Part shown: positions 25,546 through 41,522 of the stretch, in pieces
Position numbering within the stretch: the stretch's first letter is position 1
Layout: the number at the start of each line of letters is the position of its first letter
Assembly (NCBI GenBank): GCA_001784175.1
Contig: MFPR01000036.1
Coordinates: 1 to 42,745, forward strand
DNA from: Candidatus Lindowbacteria bacterium RIFCSPLOWO2_12_FULL_62_27
GTDB taxonomy: Bacteria; Lindowbacteria; 2-12-FULL-62-27
Length of the DNA stretch: 42,745 nt
Direction: 5' to 3'
Notes under the pieces: model-generated
Database searches by the model: none
What the model saw: only the letters and a program-made list of their open reading frames with translations
What the model was told of the DNA's origin: nothing
Program-made: the position numbers and the translations under genes

Positions 25546-26919
25546 CTATCCTGAAATCGGCTGGTTCATGAAGGTGAGGTATTCGAGCCGGTTGAGATTG
25601 CGGTCGAGGAAGAAATAGGCGACCGGGACGGAGACGAGGCATGCGGTGAAATATCCGTAGCCGTAGTTGGCGAATCCGAGGTTCAGCGACACCAGGGTGA
25701 AGGCGGCATTGGTGCACAGGAAGACCACCGTCGAGATCAGGGCCTCCTTGCGAAAATCAAAATAGAGCAGGACGACGAGCAGGATCAGGAAGATCGTCTG
25801 GAGGTACGCGGCGATGAAGCCGATGCGCATGATGCCGTACTGCTGGTAGCTGAAATGAAGCGCCTCGATCACAAACGGCGTCAGGACCAGCATGCAGAGC
25901 GTGATCGCGCCTTGAACCTTGATGAGCTGCCCGAGTCCCTCCCGGATGCTGCTGACGAGCCTGTCGCGTTCCCGCAGGATCTTCGACCGGTTCGCCTTGT
26001 GGATGATGGTCGCGTAATAGGTCTTGTACTGCTCGTAGAAGTCCGTTTCGATGCGGATCAAAAAGAGCGCGAAGGCCGGGATGGTGGCGAGGTAGGCCAT
26101 GAAAATGGAATTATCGTAGAGCCGGTTGGCGTAGAGCGGGCCGGTGATCTGATATCCCGACTCGCTGAGCCAGAAGATGAACTTGTCGATCCAGACGCCG
26201 AGGTTGTAGAAAAACCCGATCAGCAGGTGCGGCAGGTAGGGCCCGAAGGCCGCGAACATGTCGCGGTCGATGTAGCGGTCGGACGGAAACTCGACCATGA
26301 GGCGAAGGATCAGCCAGAAGAGGATGATGAGCTGCCCGGCCGTGAACCCGCCCAGGACGCCGATGAGACCCTGGGTCGGCGCCAGATACCACGCGCCGAG
26401 GACGCTGAAACCGGTGCCGACCAGAAACGCCGTGACAATCGCCCGGTAGTCCTTGGCCGCGCTCAGAAAAATCATGCATATCCACATGCTGCAGATGCAC
26501 AGATACAGCAGGAAGGCGATCAGGCAGTAGAGAAACGGCAGATCGCAGTGATACAAAAACGCCGCCGCGACCGGCGCCTGCGTGGCGAGCGTCACGACCC
26601 ACGTCGTGTTGAAAATCGGCAGGACCATGTGCGCCTCGTCGCGGTAGAGGCGGTCCGCGAGGTACCGCGTGACGACCATCTGCAAAATGCCGGTCATGAT
26701 GATCGAAAAGGCGTAGACGTAGTTGATGGTGGCGCCCATGATGTCGGCTTCGTGGTCGCTCAAAAAAACGCGGACGGTCCGGCCGATGACCGAGATGGCG
26801 ATGACGGTCATGAGCCACGGCCCGGAACTGATGATGGCCGCGTAGACGTAGGCCTTGATGTGGCTGGTGTAGGTATCCTCGGAGAGGATTTTGCGAAGTT
26901 CAAACCCGATGCCGGCCAT
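25546..26919 (-). CDS. pelG: PelG, Pel exopolysaccharide membrane transporter
   Basis: This 457-residue protein has about twelve membrane segments and the PelG start MAGIGFELRKILSEDTY. It belongs to the MOP/Wzx-like superfamily and is thought to carry the growing Pel polymer across the inner membrane with PelD and PelE. Family-typical stretches include SSGPWLMTVIAI, VVTRYLADRLY and LGVWIDKFIFW. Its length matches PelG of Pseudomonas. It starts one base after the pelF stop and is the last pel gene. No terminator stronger than a short hairpin follows. Confidence 0.93.
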   Translation of the reverse strand: MAGIGFELRKILSEDTYTSHIKAYVYAAIISSGPWLMTVIAISVIGRTVRVFLSDHEADIMGATINYVYAFSIIMTGILQMVVTRYLADRLYRDEAHMVLPIFNTTWVVTLATQAPVAAAFLYHCDLPFLYCLIAFLLYLCICSMWICMIFLSAAKDYRAIVTAFLVGTGFSVLGAWYLAPTQGLIGVLGGFTAGQLIILFWLILRLMVEFPSDRYIDRDMFAAFGPYLPHLLIGFFYNLGVWIDKFIFWLSESGYQITGPLYANRLYDNSIFMAYLATIPAFALFLIRIETDFYEQYKTYYATIIHKANRSKILRERDRLVSSIREGLGQLIKVQGAITLCMLVLTPFVIEALHFSYQQYGIMRIGFIAAYLQTIFLILLVVLLYFDFRKEALISTVVFLCTNAAFTLVSLNLGFANYGYGYFTACLVSVPVAYFFLDRNLNRLEYLTFMNQPISG

Positions 26920-26920
26920 G

Positions 26921-28408
26921 TCAGCGCCCGATGACGACGTTCATGTAGTGGCGGTAGAGGTCGAAGTATTTAAAATTCAAATCGGTCTCATTGTAGAAAA
27001 GTTCCGTCCGTTTTTTTCCGGCCTGGCCCATCTTTCGCGCCATCTCCGGGTTGGAGAGGATCGTGCAGATCGCATCGGCCGTGTCCTGGGGGGAAGCGAG
27101 GTTCGTCACGAGACCGCTTTTGCCGAGGGCCCGGTCCTCGTCGGTGCGGCCGTAGAGCATTTCGGAGCAGGCGCCGACGTCGGTGGCGACGCAGGGCACG
27201 CCCTGCGTGTGCGCCTCGAGAATCACCAGCGGCTGGGCTTCGCTGACGCTCGTGAGGACCACGACGTCGAGGCCGGGATAGTATTCCTTGACGTTGATCG
27301 GCCCCGTGAAGGTGATCACGTCGTCGAGGGAGAGCATGCGGGTCAGGATCCGGCATTCCTGGTGGTAGGCCTCGTCCTCGTCGGTCGGCCCCAGGATGAG
27401 CGCCTTGACGTTCGGGAGCCGGTCTTTCACGATTTTCACCGCCTTGACGAACGTCTTCACATCCTTGATCGGAACGACCCGGCCGACGAATCCGATGTAG
27501 AGCGCGCCGGGCTCTTTCGGAAACGCGCATTTGAATCCGGAAAAGGCCTCGACGGAAATGCCGTTCGGGATGATGGAGAGTTTCGCGGGCGGCGCGCCGT
27601 CCTCGAGTTGAAGGAGCTGGTTGCCGCTGTAGAGCGTGATGATTTCGTCGGAGTACTGGTAGGTGACGCGGCTCATGAATCCGAAGAGATTGATCCACCA
27701 CTGTTTGAAAAACGACGCGCCGCCGCCCCTAACGCCCCGGCCGTAGGATTCCTCGAAGATCCATTCGGAGGAGATGATCTCGATTTTCCGTTCGTTGGTG
27801 TAGATGCCGTGTTCGGTCAGGATGAGCGGCGCGCCGTTCCGGATTTTGGCGAGCGCGCCCAGAAGCCCCGCGTAGCCGGTCGAGATGGTGTGATAGACGC
27901 GCGCCCGAGGGACCTGCGTCGCGAACACGTTGTAGAGGGGCAGATGGGTAAATCGCCAGGTCCAGAAATAGTCGATGAACGAATTTTCCGTCTCGTGTTT
28001 TTTGTAGAGCCGTTCGAGAATGCTCCAGGAACGTTTTGAGAAAAAAAACTCCCGCCAATCGATGCTGCCCTCCGGATCGTTCGCAAACAGCCGCGCGAAT
28101 GCGTCAAAGCTGTCAAGCCGGCCGTCCCAGAGTTCATCGTACAGCCGTTCGATCAGTTCCCAGCGTTGCCTGTGCCGTTTCTTGACCCGGCGCGTTTCGC
28201 GGTATTCGTGAAGGTAAATTTCCTGGATGCCGGTGATGTTGTCGGGAATCGGATATTTATACGTCCGGGCCTCGTCGCGTTCCGCCGAGATCAGAAGCAC
28301 CGAAAACTCAATGTTGGGCAGGGACCGGACGAGGTTGTAGACCCACGACGAGACGCCGCCGCGAACGTACGGAAACGTTCCCTCGAGAACGAGACAGACG
28401 TCGCTCAT
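26921..28408 (-). CDS. pelF: PelF, Pel glycosyltransferase
   Basis: This is a 495-residue cytosolic GT4-type glycosyltransferase that polymerises Pel, a GalNAc-rich polymer, from UDP-sugars. The N-terminus MSDVCLVLEGTFPYVRGGVS is diagnostic of PelF. The C-terminal half has the donor-binding features of GT-B enzymes: YIGFVGRVVPIKDVKTF, then LTSVSEAQPLVILEAHTQG with the Glu pair. Start 28408 is chosen because the PelF N-terminus begins there; it overlaps the HEAT gene stop by 4 bases. Length and motifs look normal and active. Confidence 0.95.
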   Translation of the reverse strand: MSDVCLVLEGTFPYVRGGVSSWVYNLVRSLPNIEFSVLLISAERDEARTYKYPIPDNITGIQEIYLHEYRETRRVKKRHRQRWELIERLYDELWDGRLDSFDAFARLFANDPEGSIDWREFFFSKRSWSILERLYKKHETENSFIDYFWTWRFTHLPLYNVFATQVPRARVYHTISTGYAGLLGALAKIRNGAPLILTEHGIYTNERKIEIISSEWIFEESYGRGVRGGGASFFKQWWINLFGFMSRVTYQYSDEIITLYSGNQLLQLEDGAPPAKLSIIPNGISVEAFSGFKCAFPKEPGALYIGFVGRVVPIKDVKTFVKAVKIVKDRLPNVKALILGPTDEDEAYHQECRILTRMLSLDDVITFTGPINVKEYYPGLDVVVLTSVSEAQPLVILEAHTQGVPCVATDVGACSEMLYGRTDEDRALGKSGLVTNLASPQDTADAICTILSNPEMARKMGQAGKKRTELFYNETDLNFKYFDLYRHYMNVVIGR

Positions 28409-30357
28409 GCCCCCGACACCTTGCGGCGGATGATCTGCCGGACCTGCGCGGCGGTCGGCTCCGGGCAATCCGACTGCAGGACGTCGAAGAGGGTGTCGAT
28501 CTCGTCCTGAAAGGAGGCCTCGGCAAGATATTTCAGCAGGAGCGGCTCCGGCAAAATAGGCCGCTGTTCGAGGAAGACGTCCACGATATAGTCCGGCACC
28601 GGCTCATTCCGCGCCCGGATCACGTCGAACAGAATCTCGAAATAAATCGCAGCCCGCCTGGAGCAGAGGCCGGGCAAAAAGAGCTCATACAGTTCCAATC
28701 CGAACTGGGCGCTCCGCGCGGATACGATGGCGCGGATGCGGTCCATATAAGGAACGAATGCCGGCGTGTCGGCGAGCGTCAACAGGTCTTCCAGCGTCTT
28801 GAGGCCGAGACCGGGATGCTCCTGCAGTTTCATGAGGAGATCCAGGGCCCAGCGCCGGAACTCCTCTGTCCGGATGTCCTGTTTAAGATGTTCGATGAGC
28901 CCGTGGACGGCGTCGGGGCTTCGGCGGATGATCGCGGCCGCGGCGCCCGCGCAGGCTTCGCGTGTGTGCGGGTCGGGATCGGTTTCATCCATGAGGAGAA
29001 GCCTGTCGAGAATGTCCGGGTCCGGGTAATGCTCAAGGAGACCGATGGCGAGGTAGCGGATGTTGAAGTTTTCAGAATAGATCAGCCGGATGATTTCGTC
29101 CCAGAGCGGTTTGTCAAAATCCGTCTTTCGGGCCAGTTCAGACAGGAACTGCAGGATGGTTTGAATCAGGATCGCGTTTTCTTCCTGCGGAAGCGACAAG
29201 TATCGAACCAGGCTGTTAAACTGGTGATGCCGGCTCGCCAATCGGCCGATGGAGAGTACCGCCGAATAGCTGAGAAGCGGATCGCCCGTCAGAAACCGTT
29301 CCAGGACCGGGACGGCTTCGATACATCCGCAGGCCGCCAGCGCCTCGATCGCCGCCTGTTTGAGCAGCGCGTCCTCCTGCCGGTCCAGGATGCGGACGAG
29401 CGTGTTGAAGGCGTCGCGCGTTTCGAGCCGCCCGATGAGTTCGATGAGGCCGGCGCGGACGTCCGGGTCCCGGACGGCTTGAAACCGGGCTTGGTAGCGG
29501 CGGAGCCGAAGCTCCTCCGGCGCCCGATTCAGAAGCCACCGGCTCATGTTCCGGAGCGCCGTGTCAGCGTTCGAGATCACGTGATCGATCAAGAAATCAA
29601 CGGCCGCCGGATGGTGAAACTCGGACAGCCGCTTCATCATCTCCTGCTTGACCTCCACATTCTCCTCCGTCCGCGCCGCCCGCAGGACCGCCCGGACGGT
29701 CCGGCCGCCCCTGCGGCGGGTCACGGCCCAGACGGCCATTCGCCGGATCTGCTCCGACGGATGTTTGAGGAGCGGCAGGAAATGCTTCCAGTACTTTGTT
29801 TCGTTGTAATCGATCAAGGTGACCATGGCTTGCCGGACGACGTCGGTATCCGTGTTCTTGAGGAGCCTGCGAATGGGCCGACCGGCGGTCGTGTCCTTTA
29901 TTTTTTCGAGGACCTTGAGCGCGCGAATGAGGACTTTGGGATCGGGACTGTCAAGCTTTCGAATGACCTGCGGGACGAGGCGGAAGATTTTCTGGTCAGC
30001 GACGATTTCCAGGGCGGTCTCCGATGCCACCGCGCTTTCCGACACGATCATCCGGGAGAGGGTCGGAAGGATGGTACGCTCGGGAAACCGTTTCAGGGCC
30101 GTGAGGGCGGCCTGCTGAACCTCCTTGTCCTCATGAAAACAGTATCGCTCCAGGAGCGGCAGGCCGTTGGAGTTCCTGGACAGCTCAATGTACTTGCAGA
30201 ACAGGATCGCGGAATACTTGTCGGAAACGAGGGCGTGAATCCGGCCCGGCAGGTTGGGCCGGTCCAGGACGACGAGTTTTTCAACCGCCTCTTCGCGGAC
30301 GTCCCATGCCGGATCGGCGAATTCGCGGAGGGCGACTTCGAGGTCGAGGGCTTTCAT
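28405..30357 (-). CDS. HEAT-repeat protein inserted between pelE and pelF
   Basis: This is a 650-residue, entirely helical, soluble protein of tandem HEAT-like repeats, for example CFHEDKEVQQAALTALKRF, HPSEQIRRMAVWAV and KQAAIEALAACGCIEAVPVL. It has no signal peptide or membrane segment. It lies inside the pel operon, 3 bases after pelE and overlapping pelF by 4, so it is very likely made with them. It is not part of the pelABCDEFG set of Pseudomonas. PelE here also carries a short HEAT-like stretch (about residues 120-190), so this gene may extend that scaffold. A platform joining PelF to the PelD-PelE-PelG inner-membrane complex is a reasonable guess. Confidence 0.85.
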   Translation of the reverse strand: MKALDLEVALREFADPAWDVREEAVEKLVVLDRPNLPGRIHALVSDKYSAILFCKYIELSRNSNGLPLLERYCFHEDKEVQQAALTALKRFPERTILPTLSRMIVSESAVASETALEIVADQKIFRLVPQVIRKLDSPDPKVLIRALKVLEKIKDTTAGRPIRRLLKNTDTDVVRQAMVTLIDYNETKYWKHFLPLLKHPSEQIRRMAVWAVTRRRGGRTVRAVLRAARTEENVEVKQEMMKRLSEFHHPAAVDFLIDHVISNADTALRNMSRWLLNRAPEELRLRRYQARFQAVRDPDVRAGLIELIGRLETRDAFNTLVRILDRQEDALLKQAAIEALAACGCIEAVPVLERFLTGDPLLSYSAVLSIGRLASRHHQFNSLVRYLSLPQEENAILIQTILQFLSELARKTDFDKPLWDEIIRLIYSENFNIRYLAIGLLEHYPDPDILDRLLLMDETDPDPHTREACAGAAAAIIRRSPDAVHGLIEHLKQDIRTEEFRRWALDLLMKLQEHPGLGLKTLEDLLTLADTPAFVPYMDRIRAIVSARSAQFGLELYELFLPGLCSRRAAIYFEILFDVIRARNEPVPDYIVDVFLEQRPILPEPLLLKYLAEASFQDEIDTLFDVLQSDCPEPTAAQVRQIIRRKVSGA

Positions 30358-30360
30358 CCG

Positions 30361-31380
30361 CTACGAAAGGCTCTCCGCCCACCACGGCGCGATGAGCTGA
30401 TGGGTGGTGTTGAGGTCGCCGAAGGCGCGCGTCGCCCGGCAATCCTCGGCCACCCGCAGAAAGTCGCGTCTCCTGAAAAAAATCTCGGCCCGCCAGAAAT
30501 AGGCGTCGACATTTTTGGGATCCATCTCGATGGCCCGGCTCAGATGGCGCTCGGCCTCGTCGATCCGGCCCAATTTGAACATGACGCGTCCCATGCTGAA
30601 ATGGGTTTCACTGTCCTGCTCGTACGAGAGGACCTTCCCGAAGGTTTCCGCGCATTGGTCGAGATGGTAGCGCTCGCCGATGGCGTCGAGGGTCCCGGCC
30701 TGGATGTATTCGAGGTAGGCGTATCCGAGTTCCTTGAGGAGGAGGACATCCGCGGCCCGGGCCGCCGATTCCGCCGCCAGCGTGCGGATCCGCTTGCTGA
30801 GTTTTTCGTCGATCTTCGCCAGCGACGACGACGCGTAAAACCGGACCTCGCGGTCGGAGTCCTTCAGGAGATTCTGAAGCAGTCTGACCGAATCGCGGGT
30901 CTCGAGTTTGCCGAGATACTTTGTCGCGGCCCGCCGGAGCGTCACGTCGCGGCCATGGATGAGGTCGACCAGCGGCTGGATTTCCATCTGCCGGCCGATC
31001 TCCTCCTCGATGTCCATGATCCGGCCGAGCTGGTCCTCCCGCTGCATCTCCGTCTCGATCGCTTTGTGGTAATCCTCCATCACGCCCACTTTCAGCGCGT
31101 CCCGCCGGATGAGCATGACGAGCAGCACGAACGAAAAAGCGGCGCCGCCGATCGGATAGAAGAAGAGCGTGCCCAGAAAGATCGCCAGACGCTGGCCGTC
31201 AAAATCCTTCCGGACGTTTCCGGCGGCGGTCAGGGCCGCGGTGGAAACGAGGTGCAGGCACACGGGCAGGATCCAGTCCCGCAGGACATAGAGGTTCGTC
31301 CTGGTAAAGAGCACCCAGACGGATGCGCCCTCGAACGTCGCGGCGATCGAGACACAGAGGAATACGGCGAATTTGCTCAA
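30361..31380 (-). CDS. pelE: PelE, inner-membrane TPR protein
   Basis: This is a 339-residue protein. It has two to three N-terminal membrane segments (about residues 5-25, 35-52 and 68-90), a cytoplasmic helical linker with HEAT-like helices (PLVDLIHGRDVTLRRAATKY), and TPRs from about residue 215 (ETHFSMGRVMFKLGRIDEAE, AIEMDPKNVDAYFWRAEIFF). This matches PelE of Pseudomonas, which links PelD and PelG. The gene overlaps pelD by 4 bases. The identification rests on order (between pelD and pelF) and architecture, since PelE sequences diverge strongly. Confidence 0.8.
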   Translation of the reverse strand: MSKFAVFLCVSIAATFEGASVWVLFTRTNLYVLRDWILPVCLHLVSTAALTAAGNVRKDFDGQRLAIFLGTLFFYPIGGAAFSFVLLVMLIRRDALKVGVMEDYHKAIETEMQREDQLGRIMDIEEEIGRQMEIQPLVDLIHGRDVTLRRAATKYLGKLETRDSVRLLQNLLKDSDREVRFYASSSLAKIDEKLSKRIRTLAAESAARAADVLLLKELGYAYLEYIQAGTLDAIGERYHLDQCAETFGKVLSYEQDSETHFSMGRVMFKLGRIDEAERHLSRAIEMDPKNVDAYFWRAEIFFRRRDFLRVAEDCRATRAFGDLNTTHQLIAPWWAESLS

Positions 31381-32762
31381 GACGGCGCCGAAAATTTCCG
31401 CTCGACGCGCCCCACGAGATCGTCCTGCGTTTCATCGCTCATCTGGTACGAGTCGAATTCGGTCCGAAACCGGAATTCCCGCCCGGGGTCGCGGTAGGGC
31501 CGGAACTCGAACGCGGCGATGTCGGCGCGGATTTTCTCCAGCCGTTCCGCCGCCTCCTCGTCGCCTTTTGCGATCATGAGAATGCAGAGTTGGTCGTCGG
31601 TTTTGTATTTGGACACGATATCGACATCGGTGAGATGCGTTTTCAGTATCCGGTTGATCGACTTCAGCAGCCGGATCAGGGACGGGGCCGGGATCTGATC
31701 GACGTCCTGAAAGCGCATGATGGCCAGGGACAGCGGCATCGCATAGCGCGCCGCGCGGTCCACTTCCTCCTTCAAGCGCCGCTGGAGATACGTGTAATTG
31801 TAGAGATCGAGCGCCTCGTCCAGGATGTTCTTGCTCTTGTGCCACTCGAATTCATCGATCCGCTCGATGGTCTTGGCGATCCATTCGGCGATCATTTCGA
31901 ACATGCGGATGGAATTGGGATTGAATTTCAAAAACGGCACGTCATAGACCTCGATAAATCCGTTCAGGCGGCCGTTGGAATCGAGGAGCGGCCCCGCCAT
32001 GAGAGCCTCTTCGGGCTGCGCGCCCTGCGCCTCCCCCGCCCGGCGGCGGACGGTGTCCCGGACGCTTTTGACGGCCTTGTGCTCGATGGCCATCTGCGCG
32101 AGGCCGCGGGCCTGGCTCAACCGTTCGGGCGGGGCCGTGGTCCAGCGGCCTCCGGCGCGCACAAAGCCCTCCTTGTCCTTCAAGTACAGCGCAAACGCGT
32201 TGAAGGAGAGCTGGTGGGCGAGGATGTCCTCGACGGCGGCCGCGAGTTCCTGCCGGTCGGTCGTATCGAGTTTTTTGGCGGATTCGTAGAGAACCGAGAA
32301 GGTCGAGAAATTTCCGACGACGGCCTTTTCGAGTTCGGCGTTCGTGTAGTTGAGCACCTTGAGATGTTCATCCGCCGCCTTGAATTTTTCCTCGAGCAGG
32401 TCGATCCGTCCCTGGAGTTCAACGGCCTTGCGCTTGAAGCGCTCGCGGATCTCCCCCAGCGTGAACCCCGTGAACGTGAGCACGGCCGGCGGGAAATAGG
32501 CGTCGAACTCGAACATCACCCAGATGGACATGATTTTCTGATTGGCGTAAACGCAGGCGATGTACGCGACCGCGGCGGCCAGCCCGGCAAACCGGCCTTC
32601 CCGGACGCCGTACCAGCTCGCGATGTAGACGACGACGGCCATGAAGGGATGGAGCTTGATCGAAATGAAACCGATGTCCTTGCCGCCGGCGATGAGGCTG
32701 GCGGCGATGATGAGGAGGAGGGCGCCTAGGGATTCAAGATACGGAAGTAGTTTTTTTCTCAT
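31377..32762 (-). CDS. pelD: PelD, c-di-GMP receptor-like inner-membrane protein with altered I-site
   Basis: The 461-residue length equals known PelD. Four membrane segments (about 12-28, 38-52, 58-76, 84-104) are followed by a coiled-coil-like helix (105-150), a GAF domain (about 155-305) and a degenerate GGDEF domain (about 315-455). The GGDEF position reads KTDDQ (387-391), so it is catalytically dead as in all PelD. The inhibitory site that binds c-di-GMP in Pseudomonas PelD (R-x-x-D) reads Thr378-Asp-Val-Asp381 here: the Asp is kept but the Arg is lost. C-di-GMP binding may therefore be weak or absent. It overlaps the receiver gene upstream by 29 bases. Confidence 0.9.
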   Translation of the reverse strand: MRKKLLPYLESLGALLLIIAASLIAGGKDIGFISIKLHPFMAVVVYIASWYGVREGRFAGLAAAVAYIACVYANQKIMSIWVMFEFDAYFPPAVLTFTGFTLGEIRERFKRKAVELQGRIDLLEEKFKAADEHLKVLNYTNAELEKAVVGNFSTFSVLYESAKKLDTTDRQELAAAVEDILAHQLSFNAFALYLKDKEGFVRAGGRWTTAPPERLSQARGLAQMAIEHKAVKSVRDTVRRRAGEAQGAQPEEALMAGPLLDSNGRLNGFIEVYDVPFLKFNPNSIRMFEMIAEWIAKTIERIDEFEWHKSKNILDEALDLYNYTYLQRRLKEEVDRAARYAMPLSLAIMRFQDVDQIPAPSLIRLLKSINRILKTHLTDVDIVSKYKTDDQLCILMIAKGDEEAAERLEKIRADIAAFEFRPYRDPGREFRFRTEFDSYQMSDETQDDLVGRVERKFSAPS

Positions 32763-33126
32763 TCACAAGCGTTTTTCGGATGATGTCAATGATTTCCCTG
32801 GGCACGAAGGGTTTTTTGACGTACTGGCACTTGTGGTCGAAAATCTGGCGGCGCTCCGCGTCGTCCAGGACCTTTGCGCTCAACACCAGGATCGGCGTGC
32901 CGCGGTTCAGATCGGTTTCGCGGACCTTCGTGACCAGATCCAGTCCGCTCATCTGGGGCATGACGATGTCGGTCACGATCAGGCCGTAGGGCTCCTTGGT
33001 GATCCGCTCGAGCGCGGTCACCGGATTGTCGAACCGCACGACCTCGAGCTTGTACATCCTCAGCGCGGCCGTCAGGAGCATCGTGATTTCCTTTTCGTCG
33101 TCGACGACCAGGATTTGAGATTGCAT
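32734..33126 (-). CDS. Receiver-only response regulator inside the pel operon
   Basis: This is a 130-residue single REC domain with no output domain. Key residues are present: acidic pair Asp9 and Asp10 (LVVDDE), phosphoacceptor Asp53 (VTDIVMPQMSG), Ser83 (VLSAK) and Lys105 (VKKPF). It can be expected to be phosphorylated and to act by protein contact. It starts 4 bases after the pelC stop and overlaps pelD by 29 bases, an unusually deep overlap that couples the two. PelD is the obvious contact candidate, and the Hpt protein at the head of the same operon the likely phosphate source; both are inferences. Confidence 0.93.
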   Translation of the reverse strand: MQSQILVVDDEKEITMLLTAALRMYKLEVVRFDNPVTALERITKEPYGLIVTDIVMPQMSGLDLVTKVRETDLNRGTPILVLSAKVLDDAERRQIFDHKCQYVKKPFVPREIIDIIRKTLVNEKKTTSVS

Positions 33127-33130
33127 GATC

Positions 33131-33613
33131 CTATTTGGAGGCGGACAGCCGGTCCGCCGCCTTCTGACAGATTCGGCGGGTCACTTCGGTCAGCGACTCG
33201 CCGCCGGTGAACGAGGCGGCGCCGCGGTCGGCGCAGGTCGCCGACCAGACGGTTTTTCCGGTCTTCGCGGAAACGGCCCGGATCGTGAACCCGACGACGC
33301 TCTGCTCGGTGAGGCCGTGCCGGTAATGATATTCCGTGATCCGGCCCATGATCAGGTGATCCGCGCCGGCGGTCGCGGCCGCCGCGCCGGCGGCCGTCTC
33401 GGGAATGAGGGGAATCCCGCGCGATTCCAGTTCCACGCGCAAAATGCCCATGACCGCCTGGGACGCGTTGGGCTGATCCGTCAAATTCTCAAACTCCACG
33501 AGGGCCAGCGTGCCAAGCCCCGCCGGCGCCGGCGCTTCCCGAACGGCCTCACGGTTCGAGACACACCCCACCTGCATGAGAAGTCCGGCGGCCAGGATCG
33601 CAATCAACTTCAT
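33131..33613 (-). CDS. pelC: PelC-like outer-membrane lipoprotein
   Basis: This 160-residue protein has a short signal sequence ending MQVGC-VS, a usable though imperfect lipobox with Cys at residue 17. It lies where pelC is expected, directly after the pelB genes. The body, LALVEFENLTDQPNASQAVMGILRVELESRGIPL in pieces, has the beta-alpha pattern of PelC/CsgG-like lipoproteins. PelC of Pseudomonas forms a ring under the PelB pore in the periplasm. The size (PelC is about 170 residues) and position support the call more than sequence identity does. An alternative is a general penicillin-binding-protein-activator-like (LpoB) lipoprotein. Confidence 0.72.
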   Translation of the reverse strand: MKLIAILAAGLLMQVGCVSNREAVREAPAPAGLGTLALVEFENLTDQPNASQAVMGILRVELESRGIPLIPETAAGAAAATAGADHLIMGRITEYHYRHGLTEQSVVGFTIRAVSAKTGKTVWSATCADRGAASFTGGESLTEVTRRICQKAADRLSASK

Positions 33614-33645
33614 ACTCCGGAGATTACTTCAGCCGCCCGATGAAG

Positions 33646-34902
33646 TCAAAAGTAATGGGTGACTTTCGCCTGAAAGAGCCGGGTTTTGCCGGTGCCGGTG
33701 ACGGAGCTTTCCGACGCCATCTCGTAGGCCGACTCGAGCAGCGTCGCCGCGTCGACGTGGGCGAAGAGCTGAACGCGGTAGCCGTAGGACTCGAATGAAA
33801 ACAGGTCGATGTTCCGGGAGTTGTCGTGCGCCGAGAAAACGTCGGCTTCCGCGAAATACCGTTTTGAAAAATGCCGGCCGGCGTTCAGGTGCAGTCCGAT
33901 CTGGTTGATGGTTTTGGCCAGCGCCACCACGCTCACATATTCGTCCTTCGGCGAATTCCGGATTCCATAATACCCGAGATACCCTCCGGCATAGCCTGCG
34001 TGGCCGCTCGGATCGGCCACCGTCCGGAACGCCCGATAGCCGACCGTCATTTCGTAGATGCGCCCAGGGCCGAAACTCCGCGTCTTGTGAATTTTGTACT
34101 CCCTGTATTCGAACGCCGCGGACCAGTTGAGGATCTGGTTGGCGGATTGGGAGATGATCTGCGTCGTCGATCCCCGGTATGCGTCGTAATAGCCGTTCGC
34201 GAGGTACGCTTCGACCGGATCGTCCCAGAGTTTCCCGAGGACGGCGTCCAAACGGTAATCCCGGATTTCATCCGGCCGGTACACCAGCGTCGTGCCGATG
34301 GAGACCCGGCCGTCCGAATCGCTGTAAGCCTCGCCGAGGCCGGCCCATAGTTTGAAATCAAACGGCCAGCCATGCACGCGTCCCCATTCGACCTGCCATG
34401 CGTTTGCGCGCGGGTGGACGCTCTGCTTCAGGAAGGATTCCGCGTGCTTGTACTGCCTGAGTCCGGTCGCCAATCGAATGTACGTCCGGTCCTGCAGCGG
34501 GAGATAGGCCTCCACGTCATGCGCCGCGCGGTCCTGGGCGGCAAATCGGCGGAGCGAGAGGTCGTAGGCCAGCCGCCGTCCATACTGATACTTGAGCTGA
34601 GTGTAGAGTTTTCGGACGTCCTCGTGTTTCGGATCGATCTGGAGGACCTTGCCGTAGAGTTCCAGCGTTCTGTCCCAGTGCCCGAGCCTCTGATAGGCGT
34701 AGGCGAGGTCGATGAGGAGGACTGCGTTGGCCGGGTCTTCCTTCACGGCCCGATCGAGAAGTTCGGCCGCCTCCCGGTACCGTTTGGTGTCGATGTAGAG
34801 CCGGCCGAGCAGAAACGCCTCCTGGCTTTCCTGCTTCGCGCGCGCGGGACCGGCCAGAACGCAGAGTAAAACAAGCGCGATCCAGGGCCGCGTCCGGTTC
34901 AT
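33646..34902 (-). CDS. Outer-membrane beta-barrel half of split PelB
   Basis: This 418-residue protein has a cleavable signal peptide (about residues 1-22, ending ARA). TPR helices follow (about 25-110: AFLLGRLYIDTKRYREAAELL, VLLIDLAYAYQRLGHWD). From about 125 there are alternating amphipathic strands (IYEMTVGYRAFRTV, GLHLNAGRHFSKRYFAEADVF) ending AKVTHYF. A C-terminal Phe is the signal for outer-membrane barrel insertion. In Pseudomonas, PelB is one 1,193-residue protein with a membrane anchor, TPRs and a 16-strand export barrel. Here the barrel with its last TPRs is a separate gene with its own signal peptide, overlapping the upstream TPR gene by 4 bases (ATGA). Confidence 0.88.
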   Translation of the reverse strand: MNRTRPWIALVLLCVLAGPARAKQESQEAFLLGRLYIDTKRYREAAELLDRAVKEDPANAVLLIDLAYAYQRLGHWDRTLELYGKVLQIDPKHEDVRKLYTQLKYQYGRRLAYDLSLRRFAAQDRAAHDVEAYLPLQDRTYIRLATGLRQYKHAESFLKQSVHPRANAWQVEWGRVHGWPFDFKLWAGLGEAYSDSDGRVSIGTTLVYRPDEIRDYRLDAVLGKLWDDPVEAYLANGYYDAYRGSTTQIISQSANQILNWSAAFEYREYKIHKTRSFGPGRIYEMTVGYRAFRTVADPSGHAGYAGGYLGYYGIRNSPKDEYVSVVALAKTINQIGLHLNAGRHFSKRYFAEADVFSAHDNSRNIDLFSFESYGYRVQLFAHVDAATLLESAYEMASESSVTGTGKTRLFQAKVTHYF

Positions 34903-37340
34903 GGCGTTCGGGATTTCAAGACGATTTCGGCCTCGCTGAATTGACGGGTCTGCATGAGCGCCTCCGCGAAATTGAGCCGGATTTCACGATTGTCCGGCGT
35001 TTCCCGGTACAGTTTCCGGTACAGGTCGACGGCTTCGGGCAACCGGACCAGCCGTATGAGCACCGATGCGTACAAGACGCGGACCTCCCGCGTTTTCTTC
35101 TTCTCGTCCGGCAGTTTCGGGTACTGTCGGTAGATCGCCTCATAGAGTCGCCGGGCGTCCGCCGGTTTTCGCCAGTACGTATATATTTCGGCATCCCGGA
35201 ACAGTACTTCAAGATCGTCCGGTTTCAGCGCCATGCACTTTCGGAATGCGGCGTCCGCTTCCTTGTAGCGCTGGTTCCAGTAGAGCACCGTGGCCTTCAT
35301 CTTCTGGACGTCATAGTCCTCCGGATTTTTCTCCAGGATCCTGTCGTAGAATCGGACCGCGAGATCAATCTTCTCGGCCCAGAGAAACTGCTGGGCCAGG
35401 ACGTTGAGGGTCCCGGCGTTCTTGCCGAACCGCGTCTCGATCCGGGCCAGCGCCTTTTCGTATTTTGGGGCGTCGCCGGTCTCGAGATATCCGACGACCA
35501 GCCGCACGTGGTTTTCGACGTCGGCCGGATCGGCCGCCGCAATGCGCTCGCGGATCGTGAGGATTTTATTTGGCGGCGCCCGGGTCTCCTCATAGAGGCG
35601 AACGAGCAGTTTGAGCGGGTAGGGATCGGCCCATCCCCCCGCGTGGCGCTCAAGGATCTCCGCCGCCCGGCCATTCTGATTCTGCGCCGAAAACCATTCG
35701 GCCAGGAGGATCGCCTCATGCGGATCGAGGGCCTGAAGACGGTATTTGATCTCATACGCGGCCGCGATCTGCCCGGCATGCCGGCTGGCTCGGTACTGGT
35801 TCAGAAGCCGCCGGACCCATTGCATCTTTTCCGAATCGGGCGCCCGGGCCATCTCACCTTCGACCTTCCGGATCGCCTGATCGTGGATGCGGTCGCGCTC
35901 GGCCTCAAGTCGAGCGATCCTCCCGGCGTCGCCTGGCGAGGCGACCCTGACTGCGTGCGAATACGCGCCCAGGCGCTGGTATATATCTGCCAGCTCCGAA
36001 TGGCGTTGGGAGTCGAGCAGCCGGGCAAGATCGGGGGTGGAGGGATGCGTGAACAGATAAAAATCTCCAAGCGTCGATCTCAGGCCTGCGACCGACGTGT
36101 GGGCGCCGGCATTCTTGAAAAAATAGGCGATCAGAGGATCGATCGTTTCAGCCCTCCTCCGCCAATCGAGCAGCGCCTGTCGTTCCGGCGTGAGGCCGCC
36201 ATCGATTGGGGCGCCGATTTCCGCGGCGGCGATGAACGTCGCGAAGAGGTCTTCGTGGAGGCGGTCGCGAAGGCCGGTGTCGTTGAGCAAGCGCGCCGGT
36301 TTGAGGATCCCGCGCCCGCCTTTCAGCCGGAGCGCCAGGTAATCGTCGAATTCTTCGGGGCGGAGCGCATGCGAATCCATCAGCCGGGCGTACAGGCCGA
36401 GCGCCTTCTGCACGGCGCCGCTCCAGGAGTGGTAGTGGATGGCGTTTTCAAGATCGTCCCGCAATCCGCCGCGCTCGTACAGCGATTCCGTGAGTCCCGC
36501 GGCCTCGGCGAAATGTCCCGTCTGGGCGTAGAGTTCGGAAATCAGCCGCGTCGCGGCCGTATCGGCGCCGAAACGTTTCTCCATCCTCGCGGCGATTTCG
36601 TAGCCCTTCGGAAGGTCCCGGTTCCAGATGTGGATTTTCGCAAGTTTTTCATAAATCTCCATCCGGCCCGGGTCCGCCTTCAGAATGTCCTCGTACTTGC
36701 CGATCGCGCGCCCGGCGTCTTTTTTCCAAAAGTAGGCTTCGGCCAGTTCCTCCTTCCATTCGGGAACGTCCGGCTGACTGCGCTCCAGCCCCTCGTAGAG
36801 ACGAATCATGTCATCCACGCGCTTCAAGGACGAATAGAGCTGGGCAAGCCGTCGCCGGTGTTCGTGGTCCGACGGGTTCAATTTCACGTAAGCTTCAAGA
36901 TACTTGGCCGCCTTTTCGAGCCGCCCGTACCAGATCAGGTCGTCGACCAGTTTTTTCAAAATGTCCCGGTCCTTGGGATTTTTGACGTGCATGTCCTCAT
37001 AAATGTCCGTGGCTTTCTCGGGATGCTCCGTCCAGGCGTAGAGTTTCGCCAGATTCTGGAGGATGTCCTTGTTGTCGGGAGACGTCTTCAGGAGTTCCTG
37101 ATGGAATGCGATGGCCTTGTTGAGATCACCGACCTCCTCGGTGATGTTGGCATACTCCTTCACCGCGTAAAAAACGTCGCCGCCCTTCTGCAGGATCTTG
37201 TTCAACTCGACGAAGGCCATGTCGATCTGGTAGGAACGGAAATAGATGCGGGCGAGATCCAGTTGCTGGGGATAGATCACGACGGCCGTGCCGATCACCA
37301 GGGCATAAAACAGAAGGAGGCTGCGGAACCTGGCTTTCAC
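34899..37340 (-). CDS. TPR-scaffold half of split PelB
   Basis: This is an 813-residue protein. Residues about 7-24 form a membrane anchor (LLLFYALVIGTAVVIY) without a clear cleavage site. The rest is periplasmic TPR helices, many readable: NKDILQNLAKLYAWTEHPEKA, EWKEELAEAYFWKKDAGRA in pieces, and YDVQKMKATVLYWNQRYKEA. It has no beta-barrel. Together with the gene at 33646-34902 it covers the parts of PelB: the anchor and scaffold are here and the pore is there. PelB TPRs bind PelA and guide the polymer through the periplasm. It overlaps the pelA deacetylase gene by 4 bases. Confidence 0.88.
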   Translation of the reverse strand: MKARFRSLLLFYALVIGTAVVIYPQQLDLARIYFRSYQIDMAFVELNKILQKGGDVFYAVKEYANITEEVGDLNKAIAFHQELLKTSPDNKDILQNLAKLYAWTEHPEKATDIYEDMHVKNPKDRDILKKLVDDLIWYGRLEKAAKYLEAYVKLNPSDHEHRRRLAQLYSSLKRVDDMIRLYEGLERSQPDVPEWKEELAEAYFWKKDAGRAIGKYEDILKADPGRMEIYEKLAKIHIWNRDLPKGYEIAARMEKRFGADTAATRLISELYAQTGHFAEAAGLTESLYERGGLRDDLENAIHYHSWSGAVQKALGLYARLMDSHALRPEEFDDYLALRLKGGRGILKPARLLNDTGLRDRLHEDLFATFIAAAEIGAPIDGGLTPERQALLDWRRRAETIDPLIAYFFKNAGAHTSVAGLRSTLGDFYLFTHPSTPDLARLLDSQRHSELADIYQRLGAYSHAVRVASPGDAGRIARLEAERDRIHDQAIRKVEGEMARAPDSEKMQWVRRLLNQYRASRHAGQIAAAYEIKYRLQALDPHEAILLAEWFSAQNQNGRAAEILERHAGGWADPYPLKLLVRLYEETRAPPNKILTIRERIAAADPADVENHVRLVVGYLETGDAPKYEKALARIETRFGKNAGTLNVLAQQFLWAEKIDLAVRFYDRILEKNPEDYDVQKMKATVLYWNQRYKEADAAFRKCMALKPDDLEVLFRDAEIYTYWRKPADARRLYEAIYRQYPKLPDEKKKTREVRVLYASVLIRLVRLPEAVDLYRKLYRETPDNREIRLNFAEALMQTRQFSEAEIVLKSRTP

Positions 37341-39505
37341 GGCCGGAAAATCTCCACCGTTACGCGGCCGTAGGGATCATGCTCGAAAGCCAGTACGCCG
37401 TTTTTCGGCTGAACGGCGAACTCCCGCGACCTTCCCTGCCCGGGCGTGATCGACACCCGGCAGGCGCCGCCGTCGCCGGGAACGGCGATCCGGAACCGGC
37501 CGCGGCCCTTGATGTCCGCGTCGAATCGGATCTTGCGCCCGTCGGCGCTCCACCGGGAAATTTCGGCGGACGATTCGACCAGATACGGCCGGTGCGCGCC
37601 GCCTGTCCCGAACACGATTCGATGTTCCGGACTTTCGTCCAGATGCGCGTACAGGAGATCGCCGTCCCGCTTGTAGCCCAGAAGGCCCGCGCTCCGCGCC
37701 AGGTCCGGCGCCTGGCCGGGGGGCAGTCGCTCAAACCGGATCGTCCGGCACCCGCCGTTGTCGCGGATCGAATAGTCCAGAGGCCCCTGGCGGTCGATGC
37801 GGGTCGAAAAGAATCCGTGCATCGTCAGGATGTATTCGCTCGTGAACATCGGATAAATGTCCTGCGCGAGCGCGCCGTCATAGATTTTTTTGAGGGCGTT
37901 CAGGGCGCCGATCCGCTCGGCGGAATAGAAATGGTAATAGACGTTGATCGGCCTCAGGCGGATCGGCTCCCATGTCCTGGCGAAGGTGGTGAGGACGAGC
38001 TGAAATCCGTGGAAGGGCCCGGTCCAGAGATTGGTGTAGACGTTTTCGTTCAGGTTCGACGCGTAATACTGGTGGCGCGTTCCGGCCGGCCCGACCTGCC
38101 GGCGGATCGGGGAGACGTACATGTACGACGGATAAAACGCGTCGAACCGCGCGCCGGCGCCGTTGATGCTCAGAAGGCCGTGCTTCTGAATGACGCCGAG
38201 CGTCGCGTCGTCCGGCAGGCAGTCGCCGGACCAGAAGAGCGTCCGTGTTTTCTTTTCCGGCGGCGCCAGGTGCGCGTTGATGTAATCGACGGAGGCCTTG
38301 ATCTCGTCCTCGTTGTTCATGGCATAGCCGCCCTTGATCCGCCGCACGTGCCGGAGAATGTATGAACTCTGCCTGACATATTTTTCGCCGTACTCGGTGA
38401 TGACTTTCCGTCCGGCCTCCCCGCCGGCGCGGTCGAGCCCGGCCCAGACGAGCGGGTGGGTGAATGTGTGGCTGGCCGGTTCGACGTGCCGCCTCCGGAA
38501 TATTTTCCGCGCAAGTTCGACGTTTTCCGGGCTGCCCAGATACTCGGGCATGATCTCGGCCGTGATGACGGAGACGCTGATGGGGACGAGGTACGAGTCG
38601 AGGATTTCGCCGAGGATGATTTTGGAGCACGGGTCGTGTTTGCCGTGCAGCGCGAGATTGTTGAACCCGTCGCCGTCGATATGCGAATAGAAAATCCGCT
38701 TCCCGTTCCGGACCGCGATGTCGGGCGCGACCACGGGGTCGAGGCGCAGGGCCTCCCGGACGAAGAGGAAGGGGTTGAGCCGCCAAAGGCGCTTGCCGGT
38801 TTCCTCGTCCTCGTAATAGACATATCCCTCCCCCGCCATCCCGCCGCGCGGCGTCGTCACAATGGCGTCCGACACCGCCGCGCCGCCGAAGGGGTTTCGC
38901 CGACTCACGCGCAAAAATGTCTTGTTGGCCGGATCGGTCGACCGGATCCCTTCAAAATGGCCCACCTCGTGGACCAGCGATCGCTCGAATGCGGCCATGG
39001 CGGTGTCGACGATCTCGATCTCGATTTCATGCGCGCCGTATCCGGATTCGAAGGAATGCACAAGACCCATCCGGCCCAGAAGGCCGTTGATGTCCGATTC
39101 GGCGGTTTTCCGGCCGGTCTTGCGGTCCTCGTAGACGCCGAGATTCTCGAGGACCATGAGTTTTTTCCCCTCGTCGAGCCGGTCGGTCAGCCATCGGCAC
39201 AGCGCGCGCGCCGACGGATTGTCGGGCGTGTTGAACCACGTCACGACGGCGCCGCAGGCCGCCATCGTTTTGCTGTCCGGCAGGGGCGCCGCGATGTCGT
39301 AGTAGTCGACGTCGAATCCGTAGTGGTTCAGGACCATTTCGAAGTGGCGGTGAATCCGGGTCTCCCGCGGCGTCGCTTCAAACTCCGAGTTGTACAGCGC
39401 GCATATTTTGCGGTTGAGCGGTTCGGCCGTCGCGCTTGGAGCGCCGAGCGCCGTCGCCAGCAGCGCCGGCAGGACGGCGGCGAATCTGCCCAACCCCCCG
39501 GACAT
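37337..39505 (-). CDS. PelA deacetylase half (split PelA)
   Basis: This 722-residue periplasmic protein has a signal peptide (about 1-27, ending ATA). Its carbohydrate esterase-type deacetylase domain carries the metal-binding residues Asp277 and Asp279 (SHIDGDGFNN) and His346 and His350 (ASHTFTHPLVW). The N-terminal 30-260 region resembles the reductase-like middle domain of PelA; the C-terminal 180 residues are beta-rich and may bind glycan. Deacetylation of Pel makes it cationic and is required for export. The GH114 hydrolase domain that begins PelA in Pseudomonas is absent here and is encoded by the gene just upstream, 9 bases away. All recognisable deacetylase ligands are present. Confidence 0.9.
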   Translation of the reverse strand: MSGGLGRFAAVLPALLATALGAPSATAEPLNRKICALYNSEFEATPRETRIHRHFEMVLNHYGFDVDYYDIAAPLPDSKTMAACGAVVTWFNTPDNPSARALCRWLTDRLDEGKKLMVLENLGVYEDRKTGRKTAESDINGLLGRMGLVHSFESGYGAHEIEIEIVDTAMAAFERSLVHEVGHFEGIRSTDPANKTFLRVSRRNPFGGAAVSDAIVTTPRGGMAGEGYVYYEDEETGKRLWRLNPFLFVREALRLDPVVAPDIAVRNGKRIFYSHIDGDGFNNLALHGKHDPCSKIILGEILDSYLVPISVSVITAEIMPEYLGSPENVELARKIFRRRHVEPASHTFTHPLVWAGLDRAGGEAGRKVITEYGEKYVRQSSYILRHVRRIKGGYAMNNEDEIKASVDYINAHLAPPEKKTRTLFWSGDCLPDDATLGVIQKHGLLSINGAGARFDAFYPSYMYVSPIRRQVGPAGTRHQYYASNLNENVYTNLWTGPFHGFQLVLTTFARTWEPIRLRPINVYYHFYSAERIGALNALKKIYDGALAQDIYPMFTSEYILTMHGFFSTRIDRQGPLDYSIRDNGGCRTIRFERLPPGQAPDLARSAGLLGYKRDGDLLYAHLDESPEHRIVFGTGGAHRPYLVESSAEISRWSADGRKIRFDADIKGRGRFRIAVPGDGGACRVSITPGQGRSREFAVQPKNGVLAFEHDPYGRVTVEIFRP

Positions 39506-39514
39506 CGCGGTCGA

Positions 39515-40363
39515 TCAGCCGGCGCGGTAGAGCCGGCGCAGATCGATTTCGGCGATATACAGGCGGAAGCGGTGGGCCATGCAGAGTTCCCGGCTGCGGC
39601 GGATCAAGTCCGGCTGTTCCGCGGTCGCATAGTCGATCACGAAGACCGTTTTGCCGGTCCGGCGCTGAAAGGCTGTGAGGCGATCGAGGATCCACTGCGT
39701 CGCCTCCGGATCCTGCGGGCCGTAGGCCCGTGCGGAAAAGTCGTACAGCGTCGCCAGATCCTCGACCAGGACGGCGTCGATGTGGGTATCGATTTTTTCG
39801 AGGATGTCGATGCCGCTGTTGGTGAGGAGGGTGAGTCCCGGATACCTGTCACGAATTTTCCGGATCAGCGCCGCGGCCGCGTCGATTTTTCCCGCCGATC
39901 CCGGCGCGTTCGAAATCTCGCCGTAGACGGCTTCATTCAAGGTATCGAGAAACAGGCCGTTGAACCCGCGGGCTACAATGGAGGCAATGGCGGTGTCGAG
40001 AAGAAGCGCCTGCCACTCCTCGCTTCGAATGTCCACCGCGATGTCGCCGGGCCAGTTCGGATTTTCTTTTCCGACCCAGGGTTTATTCCGGATCAGCGGC
40101 CAGTAGGGCCGATAGGTCCCGCACTCGCCGATGCTGAGGTACCCGATTTTTTTTGCCGGCGCGAGGTTCCGGACATCCGGCCATTCGTCCGGCTCGAGGA
40201 TCGCCAGATCGACCGCTGCAAGTTCGCCCGGCGGAATCGCCGGGCCGAAATAGCAGACCCAGCCGCCGGGATCAAACGGCGGCGGCGTTGTCGCCGGTCC
40301 CGAACAGGCGCAGAGAAGCGCGAGCGCCAGACCGATGAACCGTGCCGAAAACGCGCGCCGCAT
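39515..40363 (-). CDS. GH114 glycoside hydrolase lipoprotein, PelA N-terminal part as own gene
   Basis: This is a 282-residue protein. The N-terminus ends LALLCAC with a good lipobox (Cys20), so it is a lipoprotein rather than a soluble secreted domain. The body is a TIM-barrel of the GH114 type (endo-alpha-1,4-N-acetylgalactosaminidase): WVCYFGPAIPPGELAAVDLAI, KKIGYLSIGECGTYR, GFNGLFLDTLNEA (Asp140) and AVLVEDLATLY (Glu201), the last probably matching the catalytic Glu of PelA. It cuts the GalNAc-rich Pel polymer and so sets its length or release. ATG 40363 is chosen because the signal peptide begins there. It is separated from the deacetylase gene by 9 bases. Confidence 0.88.
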   Translation of the reverse strand: MRRAFSARFIGLALALLCACSGPATTPPPFDPGGWVCYFGPAIPPGELAAVDLAILEPDEWPDVRNLAPAKKIGYLSIGECGTYRPYWPLIRNKPWVGKENPNWPGDIAVDIRSEEWQALLLDTAIASIVARGFNGLFLDTLNEAVYGEISNAPGSAGKIDAAAALIRKIRDRYPGLTLLTNSGIDILEKIDTHIDAVLVEDLATLYDFSARAYGPQDPEATQWILDRLTAFQRRTGKTVFVIDYATAEQPDLIRRSRELCMAHRFRLYIAEIDLRRLYRAG

Positions 40364-40389
40364 GCGATTTCGCGAAGTGGGTGGGCCGA

Positions 40390-40572
40390 TCAGCCGGCCC
40401 TGGCGGTCAACCGGACGGAAGCGACAAGCTCTTTGAGCCCGTCGGCCAGCGAGAACGCGGGCGCGTATCCAAGAATCCGGCGGGCTTTCGAATGGCCGCC
40501 GTTCGAAACAAGCGCCCCGGCGATGTGCGAGCCGATGAATCCGCAGCCGCCGGTGATCGCGTAGACGCTCAT
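40390..40572 (-). pseudogene. Deletion remnant of an NAD-dependent sugar epimerase
   Basis: This frame encodes 60 residues. The first 26 (TGGCGFIGSHIAGALVSNGG) are the NAD-binding start of an SDR sugar-nucleotide epimerase. The last 33 (SKARRILGYAPAFSLADGLKEL) are the normal C-terminus of such enzymes. The roughly 230-260 residues between, with the catalytic YxxxK, are missing, and the reading frame is kept across the join near residue 26. A UDP-GlcNAc 4-epimerase (PelX) that makes UDP-GalNAc accompanies some pel loci, so this was probably such a gene. Its start overlaps the Hpt stop (ATGA). It cannot be active; a collapsed assembly is an alternative explanation. Confidence 0.8.
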
Positions 40573-41057
40573 GCGGGATCAGGTCTCCCGGGGCGGCAGT
40601 TTTTTCCGCGGTCGTCCATGCGATCGTTCTCCAACTGCGACAGTTTCTGCAACCGGTGGAACACGGCGTAATCCGCCGCGCTGCGCTCCACTCCCTTCTC
40701 GGACGACGCCGCGACATCGCTGATCGCGGTGAGCCATTCGACGCAAAGGTCACATATCCCGTCCGTCACGGGCTTTGCTCCCTTCAGAAGGGGATACAGC
40801 ACTTCGTCCAGCGCCGCGCCGAGGTCTGCGAGGGTCTGGAACCCGTACATGCTGGCGGCGCCTTTCATCGAATGCGCGGCGCGGAAAATCTCGTTGACGG
40901 GGCTGAGATTGGCCTTGTTTTCCTGCATGTCCGCGACCAGGGACCTGAGTTGTGCAACCTTATCCGGCAGATCGGACGCGTAGATGATCCGGAGCCTCCG
41001 CACTTCATCATCGATGGCCGAATCGAACTGCCCGGGCACCGGCAGGTCGGTGCTCAT
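40569..41057 (-). CDS. Hpt phosphotransfer protein at the head of the pel operon
   Basis: This is a 162-residue helical protein with a single Hpt domain and the phosphorylatable His62 in FRAAHSMKGAASMYGF. Hpt proteins pass phosphate between receiver domains and have no kinase activity. No histidine kinase is encoded in the window, so the kinase is elsewhere. Candidate partners are the REC-only protein at 32734-33126 and the HTH-REC protein at 41523-42131. It overlaps the epimerase remnant by 4 bases and a short upstream ORF by 3 bases. The C-terminus past about residue 140 is charged and probably disordered. Confidence 0.92.
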   Translation of the reverse strand: MSTDLPVPGQFDSAIDDEVRRLRIIYASDLPDKVAQLRSLVADMQENKANLSPVNEIFRAAHSMKGAASMYGFQTLADLGAALDEVLYPLLKGAKPVTDGICDLCVEWLTAISDVAASSEKGVERSAADYAVFHRLQKLSQLENDRMDDRGKNCRPGRPDPA

Positions 41058-41149
41058 GCGACGTGATGGAGCCTCGACAGGGCGGACTCCAAGTTCGCGG
41101 CCATGGACAAATAATGATAGGAAATTTCATTTTCTGCCGCCACCTCCAT
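41054..41149 (-). CDS. Short ORF before Hpt, possible STAS-like remnant
   Basis: This 31-codon frame (MEVAAENEISYHYLSM to NLESALSRLHHVA) ends overlapping the Hpt start. The same frame is open upstream for about 55 more codons after a stop (TGA) near 41317 without ATG, GTG or TTG. Its translation there (RQIVKIVASRSVSRYIRI) continues smoothly into the 31 residues. The whole reads faintly like the end of a STAS anti-sigma-antagonist domain (NLESALSRL at the end). It could be the tail of a gene lost by deletion, or a leader peptide of the operon. A promoter-like pair lies just upstream, so a real, nearly leaderless short gene is also possible. Confidence 0.35.
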   Translation of the reverse strand: MEVAAENEISYHYLSMAANLESALSRLHHVA

Positions 41150-41522
41150 GATGCGAATATAGCGTGAAACGGAGCGGGATGCAACGATTTTGACGATCTG
41201 GCGCGGGATGCGGACGGAATCGGGTTGAACTGGATGTGAAAACGCCGGCGGACCAGGCCGTGCATTCTTAGATTGCCCCCTTTTTTCAGGGACTCCGGGT
41301 CATCCCAACAAAACAATTCCTGTCACGAAACCATCCGGCGCTGAACAGTCCCGCGTCGATGGACCCTTCGGTCCCGCATCATCAGGTTTCTGATATTGAA
41401 CAAAATACGCGCTTTCTTTCGAAGGAGTGCGATTCGGAAAGGGTTTTGCACGAACAACTCGCAAAGAATGCAAACTACTTAAAACAACCAAATCAACGAA
41501 TGTGCGTGAATGGGGGTTGAGG
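41150..41522. other. Divergent intergenic region between pel operon and HTH-REC gene
   Basis: These 373 bases hold the candidate pel promoter (41156-41184), an open but start-less minus-strand frame noted with the short ORF, and a more AT-rich segment (about 41385-41500) before the regulator gene. TTTGCA (41445-41450) and TGCAAA (41469-41474) form a loose inverted repeat. No RNA gene or clear terminator is visible. The regulator probably binds here. Confidence 0.4.
41156..41184 (-). promoter_or_regulatory. Candidate pel operon promoter
   Basis: On the minus strand, TTGCAT (41184-41179), a 17-base spacer and TATATT (41161-41156) form a plausible sigma-70-type promoter. The start site would fall near 41149, at the short ORF's ATG, about 95 bases before the Hpt gene. 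No other match as good was seen in the divergent region. Confidence 0.4.

Follow-up and report, generated by a model that had tools for sequence, protein, structure and literature searches.

The biofilm polymer Pel is widespread, and its production is the textbook example of a polysaccharide synthase under the control of cyclic di-GMP (c-di-GMP). This report concerns the pel operon on contig MFPR01000036.1 of Candidatus Lindowbacteria bacterium RIFCSPLOWO2_12_FULL_62_27, which was analysed as a stretch of 42,745 nucleotides (the window), and in particular two genes of that operon, one encoding a stand-alone receiver (REC2) and the other a protein of HEAT repeats (HEAT). The pelABCDEFG operon of Pseudomonas aeruginosa has the same seven functions as the window in the same order. 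The window differs from it in that pelA and pelB are each split into two genes, the REC2 and HEAT genes are inserted, a gene for a histidine phosphotransfer (Hpt) protein and the remnant of an epimerase gene stand at the 5' end, and the I-site of PelD has lost its arginine. The Pel loci of the Gram-positive Bacillus cereus and streptococci share with the window a split PelA, in the form of PelADA and PelAH, and streptococcal PelD has lost its c-di-GMP domain; unlike the window, these loci are described without mention of receivers or two-component genes in the main text (PMC7112168). Fission of PelB is recorded in a survey of pel operons, the main text of which mentions neither response regulators nor HEAT proteins (PMC7112194). 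In Myxococcus xanthus, the phosphorylated single-domain regulator EpsW stimulates the sugar transferase EpsZ by direct contact (PMC12802240). EpsW and REC2 are both stand-alone phosphorylatable receivers tied to an exopolysaccharide, and EpsW controls a membrane enzyme by contact; however, its target is the initiating phosphoglycosyl transferase of a Wzx/Wzy pathway, whereas the window encodes a synthase-dependent pathway in which PelD would be the target of a putative contact.

The source contig of 42.7 kb belongs to a genome of 4.39 Mb (94% complete), in which the pelG of the window is the sole PelG gene. The operon comprises 12 intact genes and one degenerate gene, all on the minus strand (41057 down to 25546), in the 5'–3' order hpt, degenerate epimerase, pelA-hydrolase, pelA-deacetylase, pelB-TPR, pelB-barrel, pelC, REC2, pelD, pelE, HEAT, pelF and pelG. 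The successive intergenic gaps from hpt to pelG are -4, 26, 9, -4, -4, 32, 4, -29, -4, 3, -4 and 1 bp, and gaps of -29 to +32 bp make it very likely that the operon, including hpt, REC2 and HEAT, is one transcription unit; terminator-like and promoter-like patterns in the window are not commoner than in shuffled sequence. A first-pass annotation had described the hpt, receiver and HEAT genes as joined to pelABCDEFG in one tight minus-strand unit with a divergent helix-turn-helix (HTH)–REC regulator nearby. The three genes, their coordinates and strand (Pfam PF01627, PF00072 and HEAT_2), the compact layout and the regulator were all confirmed, and every pel function was found, but pelA and pelB proved to be split and an epimerase remnant (40390–40572) had been overlooked.

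The gene for REC2 (32734–33126; 130 amino acids; PF00072, 75 bits) overlaps pelD by 29 bp, and that for HEAT (28405–30357; 650 amino acids; HEAT_2, 134 bits), a soluble candidate scaffold, lies between pelE and pelF. Other pel loci were gathered via PelG alone, so that the sample is not biased toward receiver or HEAT genes. Eighty of them came from a named species collection and five from plasmid records; PelG-positive genomes amounted to 15 of 46 in the phylum of locus L015, 7 of 384 in Omnitrophota, 28 of 343 in Planctomycetota and 9 of 345 in the phylum of locus L010, and 24 of 393 Spirochaetota genomes were above the PelG cut-off. Phyla were attributed from record titles, upstream DNA was included for each locus and genes were located by profiles built for this analysis. 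Counting the window, 20 loci carry REC2 and HEAT, three HEAT only, none REC2 only and 103 neither, a count that is not a significance test, since loci of the same phylum are non-independent and the supported branches of the PelG tree leave one independent pair. REC2 and HEAT occur together well above chance, as a linked pair: the window and 19 further loci, from five phyla, have REC2 immediately 5' of pelD and HEAT in the pelE–pelF interval. Among the loci with HEAT only, pelD is N-terminally truncated in L098, the receiver of L161 is degenerate and was missed by the profile, and L143 is genuinely without a receiver; a partial receiver and HEAT are also present in L157, which ends at a contig edge. 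PelG was absent from the other two genomes of the window's phylum (three genomes searched), which leaves no close relative for comparison. A rearranged order, pelE–pelF–pelG–pelD–HEAT, was seen in L140 (13123–18998).

We favour, with moderate confidence, the reading that the window encodes a distinct subtype of Pel synthase, a complex of PelD, PelE, PelF and PelG with its own REC2 switch and HEAT scaffold. REC2 would bind PelD, and HEAT would link PelE with the glycosyltransferase PelF. Once phosphorylated at D53, REC2 would contact PelD differently and thereby switch polymerization on or off, a form of protein-level control. The phosphate would pass from a hybrid kinase encoded elsewhere to the Hpt protein of the operon and on to REC2. 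This input would act alongside the usual c-di-GMP input, and in the window organism, in which the c-di-GMP site of PelD is without its key arginine, REC2 is probably the main switch. The reading is supported by the genetic tie between REC2 and the enzyme gene pelD, directly 5' of which it lies in 20 loci, and the gene positions are best read as protein-level control via PelD, PelE and PelF. It is further supported by the separate REC2 lineage, the phospho-pocket that is intact outside Omnitrophota and L161, the natural PelE–HEAT fusions, the lost I-site arginine, the close packing of the genes, the histidine kinases next to four other pel operons and the EpsW–EpsZ precedent. The first-pass annotation had proposed that a His–Asp relay controls Pel directly at the protein level; the gene positions favour control at that level, but there is no dedicated kinase in the window, the REC2-bearing relatives mostly keep the RxxD motif of the PelD I-site and the REC2s of Omnitrophota are eroded. 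Of the three genes expected to stand beside pel in relatives as well, the receiver and HEAT genes occupy the same two sites in loci of five phyla, and hpt was found beside pel in the window only. If the favoured reading is true, signals from histidine kinases would reach a polysaccharide synthase directly in five phyla, including synthases without a c-di-GMP motif, and the Pel inner-membrane complex would gain REC2 and HEAT as new candidate subunits. The REC2–HEAT module points to a previously undescribed way of switching Pel on or off. The literature searched contained no account of a pel operon with a receiver or HEAT protein; this scope excluded subscription papers and supplements, and absence within it is not proof.

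Judged by their sequences, the REC2s are a separate lineage of receivers. In a receiver tree, 15 pelD-adjacent receivers, including those of Omnitrophota, are separated by a branch of 97/99 support from the receivers at the 5' end of operons and from other receivers, and the window REC2 groups with its counterpart from the Spirochaete L104 (100/94). A larger tree with Planctomycetota, in which L160 and the very long-branched L161 are placed by the midpoint root, again splits REC2 from the rest (97/98), and the receiver of L148, a Planctomycetota locus without HEAT, nests inside the REC2 side. The REC2 of the window has a complete phosphorylation pocket (D9–D10, D53, S83 and K105). The same Asp-Asp, Asp, Ser/Thr and Lys are intact in the L015 phylum, in the Spirochaete and in all complete Planctomycetota REC2s except L161. 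The pocket is eroded in Omnitrophota, where the phosphorylated Asp is replaced by Ser in L131 and by Asn in L132. These Omnitrophota proteins keep their place despite the loss of receiver residues, as does the pseudo-receiver of L161, and their retention suggests a structural subunit. REC2 might accordingly be seen everywhere as a subunit that holds PelD whatever its phosphorylation state, with the intact pockets of some clades inherited and unused; however, conservation of D/D/S-T/K over the deep divergence between the window, the L015 phylum, the Spirochaete and most Planctomycetota would be unexpected without use, and we regard this alternative as rather unlikely. Pseudo-receivers retained directly 5' of pelD were located in L018 (2426–2809), L131 (1158–1529), L132 (8599–8976, minus strand) and L161 (9075–9530).

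The pelD gene (31377–32762) encodes a membrane protein with a GAF and a degenerate GGDEF domain (Pfam). A profile headed by the window protein matches the P. aeruginosa PelD structures 4etx and 4dmz with E about 1e-70; the AlphaFold2 model of the window protein has a mean pLDDT of 86.8, and the sequence profile was used instead of a whole-model structure ranking, which was dominated by GGDEF domains. In P. aeruginosa PelD, the substitutions R367A, D370A and R402A each lead to loss of c-di-GMP binding and of the pellicle (PMC2170427). The RxxD motif of the I-site is not present in the window PelD, which has TDVD at 378–381, with T378 in place of Arg, in direct alignment with REVD of a diguanylate cyclase; the residue aligned with R402 is I or, if gaps are placed differently, an adjacent K or R. 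Among 26 PelDs with the HEAT module, RxxD is retained in 16, namely the eleven PelDs scored from the L015 phylum, without exception, and those of L143, L151, L157, L160 and L161, and is lost or unalignable in the window, L104, five Omnitrophota, L142, L156 and L162. Since most REC2-bearing relatives keep RxxD, REC2 would supplement c-di-GMP as a further input and not simply take its place, and a relay in those organisms would add to c-di-GMP control. The notion that REC2 replaces c-di-GMP as a general rule was rejected, because the motif is kept in these 16 PelDs and lost in many Spirochaetota without the module. More tentatively, these enzymes may represent a class of Pel synthase switched by phosphorylation, in which REC2 would be a PelD subunit that supplants c-di-GMP where the I-site has decayed and HEAT would couple PelE to PelF. 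The window genome has 15 GGDEF matches, PelD itself among them, and therefore probably still makes c-di-GMP. Most Spirochaetota PelDs (L107–L128) are without RxxD and without the receiver–HEAT pair, and c-di-GMP control of Pel may commonly be lost there. In seven Planctomycetota loci (L146, L147, L148, L149, L152, L155 and L159), PelD has a second weak GGDEF match towards the C-terminus, which suggests tandem degenerate GGDEF domains.

A regulator of 234 amino acids with a MerR-type HTH and a REC domain (41427–42131, plus strand; PF12728, PF00072) starts 370 bp from the operon start in the opposite direction, and transcriptional control of the pel operon by this protein is possible. Its presence there is the ground for a second alternative, in which the receiver and Hpt act on gene expression; the relay would end at the MerR–REC protein, which would control the pel promoter, with REC2 a mere intermediate carrier. 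This is improbable, as REC2 always adjoins pelD and is linked to HEAT, which is not a regulatory gene, and no MerR–REC gene was recognised beside the other pair-bearing loci.

The predicted structure of the window HEAT protein consists of all-helical repeats (mean pLDDT 82), the C-terminal quarter of the model being weaker. HEAT occupies the same place in more than 20 other loci, and the protein is 624–685 amino acids long in most loci. In L151 and L157, from Planctomycetota, a single open frame encodes PelE followed by HEAT; these fusions are the best sign that HEAT acts on PelE, and together with the pseudo-receivers they are natural variants that make the subunit question testable. Mere hitchhiking, whereby an ancestral operon was copied among phyla with two passenger genes that share no function with Pel, would fit the patchy spread of the pair (one Spirochaete and a minority of Planctomycetota) through whole-operon transfer, but it is highly improbable, as the two genes occupy different sites within the operon and have been kept despite great sequence divergence, PelE and HEAT are fused in some loci, and loci without the pair lack both genes together.

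The first gene of the operon, hpt (40569–41057; PF01627, 47.5 bits, 2.2e-12), encodes a stand-alone histidine phosphotransfer protein of 162 amino acids, the phospho-accepting residue of which is His62 in FRAAHSMKGAAS. No other stand-alone Hpt was found in the genome, where the five remaining Hpt matches lie in open frames of 614–1060 amino acids. Outside the window, no hpt gene beside pel was recognised by Pfam on 14 genomes or records or when all fetched loci were scanned with a motif, a scan that comprised short stretches only and that divergent Hpts would escape. In ten other loci, a second receiver stands where hpt does, just 5' of pelA, and the order in Azospirillum thermophilum is response regulator, epimerase, pelA. 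Histidine kinases adjoin the pel operon in L100, L101, L102 and L129. Those of L100 (1–1050) and L102 (2587–4497) stand immediately before the first receiver and have a GGDEF-like end without GG[DE]EF and with an I-site-like RRED, so that sensing of c-di-GMP is possible. In this they resemble SgmT, a hybrid kinase and c-di-GMP receptor of M. xanthus that controls the extracellular matrix via the DNA-binding DigR (PMC3509222), and by analogy c-di-GMP and phosphorylation signals may meet at these kinases, which have no counterpart in the window.

Several observations weigh against control of the synthase through phosphorylated REC2. There is no dedicated kinase in the window or the operon, and the genome has 81 receiver matches, with many receiver and hybrid proteins; as the Hpt is not conserved beside pel, it could serve other receivers. 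The Omnitrophota REC2s are without key receiver residues, and phosphorylation is therefore not the sole role of REC2, which could also be transcriptional or buffering. Across phyla, HEAT proteins are only 14–23% identical to that of the window, so that locus position and protein length count as much as sequence in the case for orthology, and a common origin is argued from position and from profile scores, the latter inflated by HEAT repeats. The PelG tree neither supports nor excludes spread of the pair by transfer.

The remaining genes account for the core of the pathway. The Pel exporter gene pelG (25546–26919; PF16933, 468.6 bits) and the GT4 glycosyltransferase gene pelF (26921–28408; DUF3492, 299 bits, and glycosyltransferase group 1) are both present, 1 bp apart. 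Counterparts of PelA, PelB, PelC, PelD and PelE are all present too, PelB being recognised by TPR content, position and weaker matches. PelE (30361–31380) is a membrane protein of 339 amino acids with HEAT and TPR repeats, assigned by Pfam and by matches to PelE of relatives, and PelC (33131–33613) is a lipoprotein of 160 amino acids with phmmer scores of 34–67 bits to PelC of Pseudomonas and Azospirillum. The TPR part of PelB (34899–37340; 813 amino acids) was assigned by TPR families, position and matches to PelB of relatives. The outer-membrane part (33646–34902; 418 amino acids) has TPR at 30–105, a predicted barrel and a C-terminal YF, and weakly matches the same gene in L010 and L004. 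The hydrolase part of PelA (39515–40363) is a GH114 lipoprotein of 282 amino acids (PF03537, 65.9 bits) with a Cys after the signal peptide in its translation. The deacetylase-like part (37337–39505; 722 amino acids) is without a Pfam match and has phmmer scores of 249–294 bits to full-length PelA of the proteobacteria Cupriavidus and Azonexus. The remnant of 60 codons between hpt and the hydrolase gene derives from a PelX-like NAD-dependent epimerase, as indicated by alignment to pel-adjacent epimerases in L004, L098 and L090 and by a weak Pfam match that covers the N-terminal Rossmann part; the N-terminal Rossmann motif is fused in frame to the C-terminal end, with about 270 residues missing, and this internal deletion may be real or an assembly error.

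A search for Rfam families and tRNAs in the window gave nothing above chance. In three metagenome-assembled genomes of KSB1 (L014, L016 and L025), pelF–pelG lie just downstream of apparent pilus-assembly genes, with a receiver between them in L014 and L016; no pelD, pelE or pelA was detected in the fetched stretches of these loci. In the window, a 330-residue protein encoded at 19719–20708 (minus strand), close to a MerR gene, has a weak match to IS200-like Y1 transposases. A B12-binding radical-SAM gene (23986–25476, minus strand) starts 69 bp past pelG on the same strand and could share its transcript.

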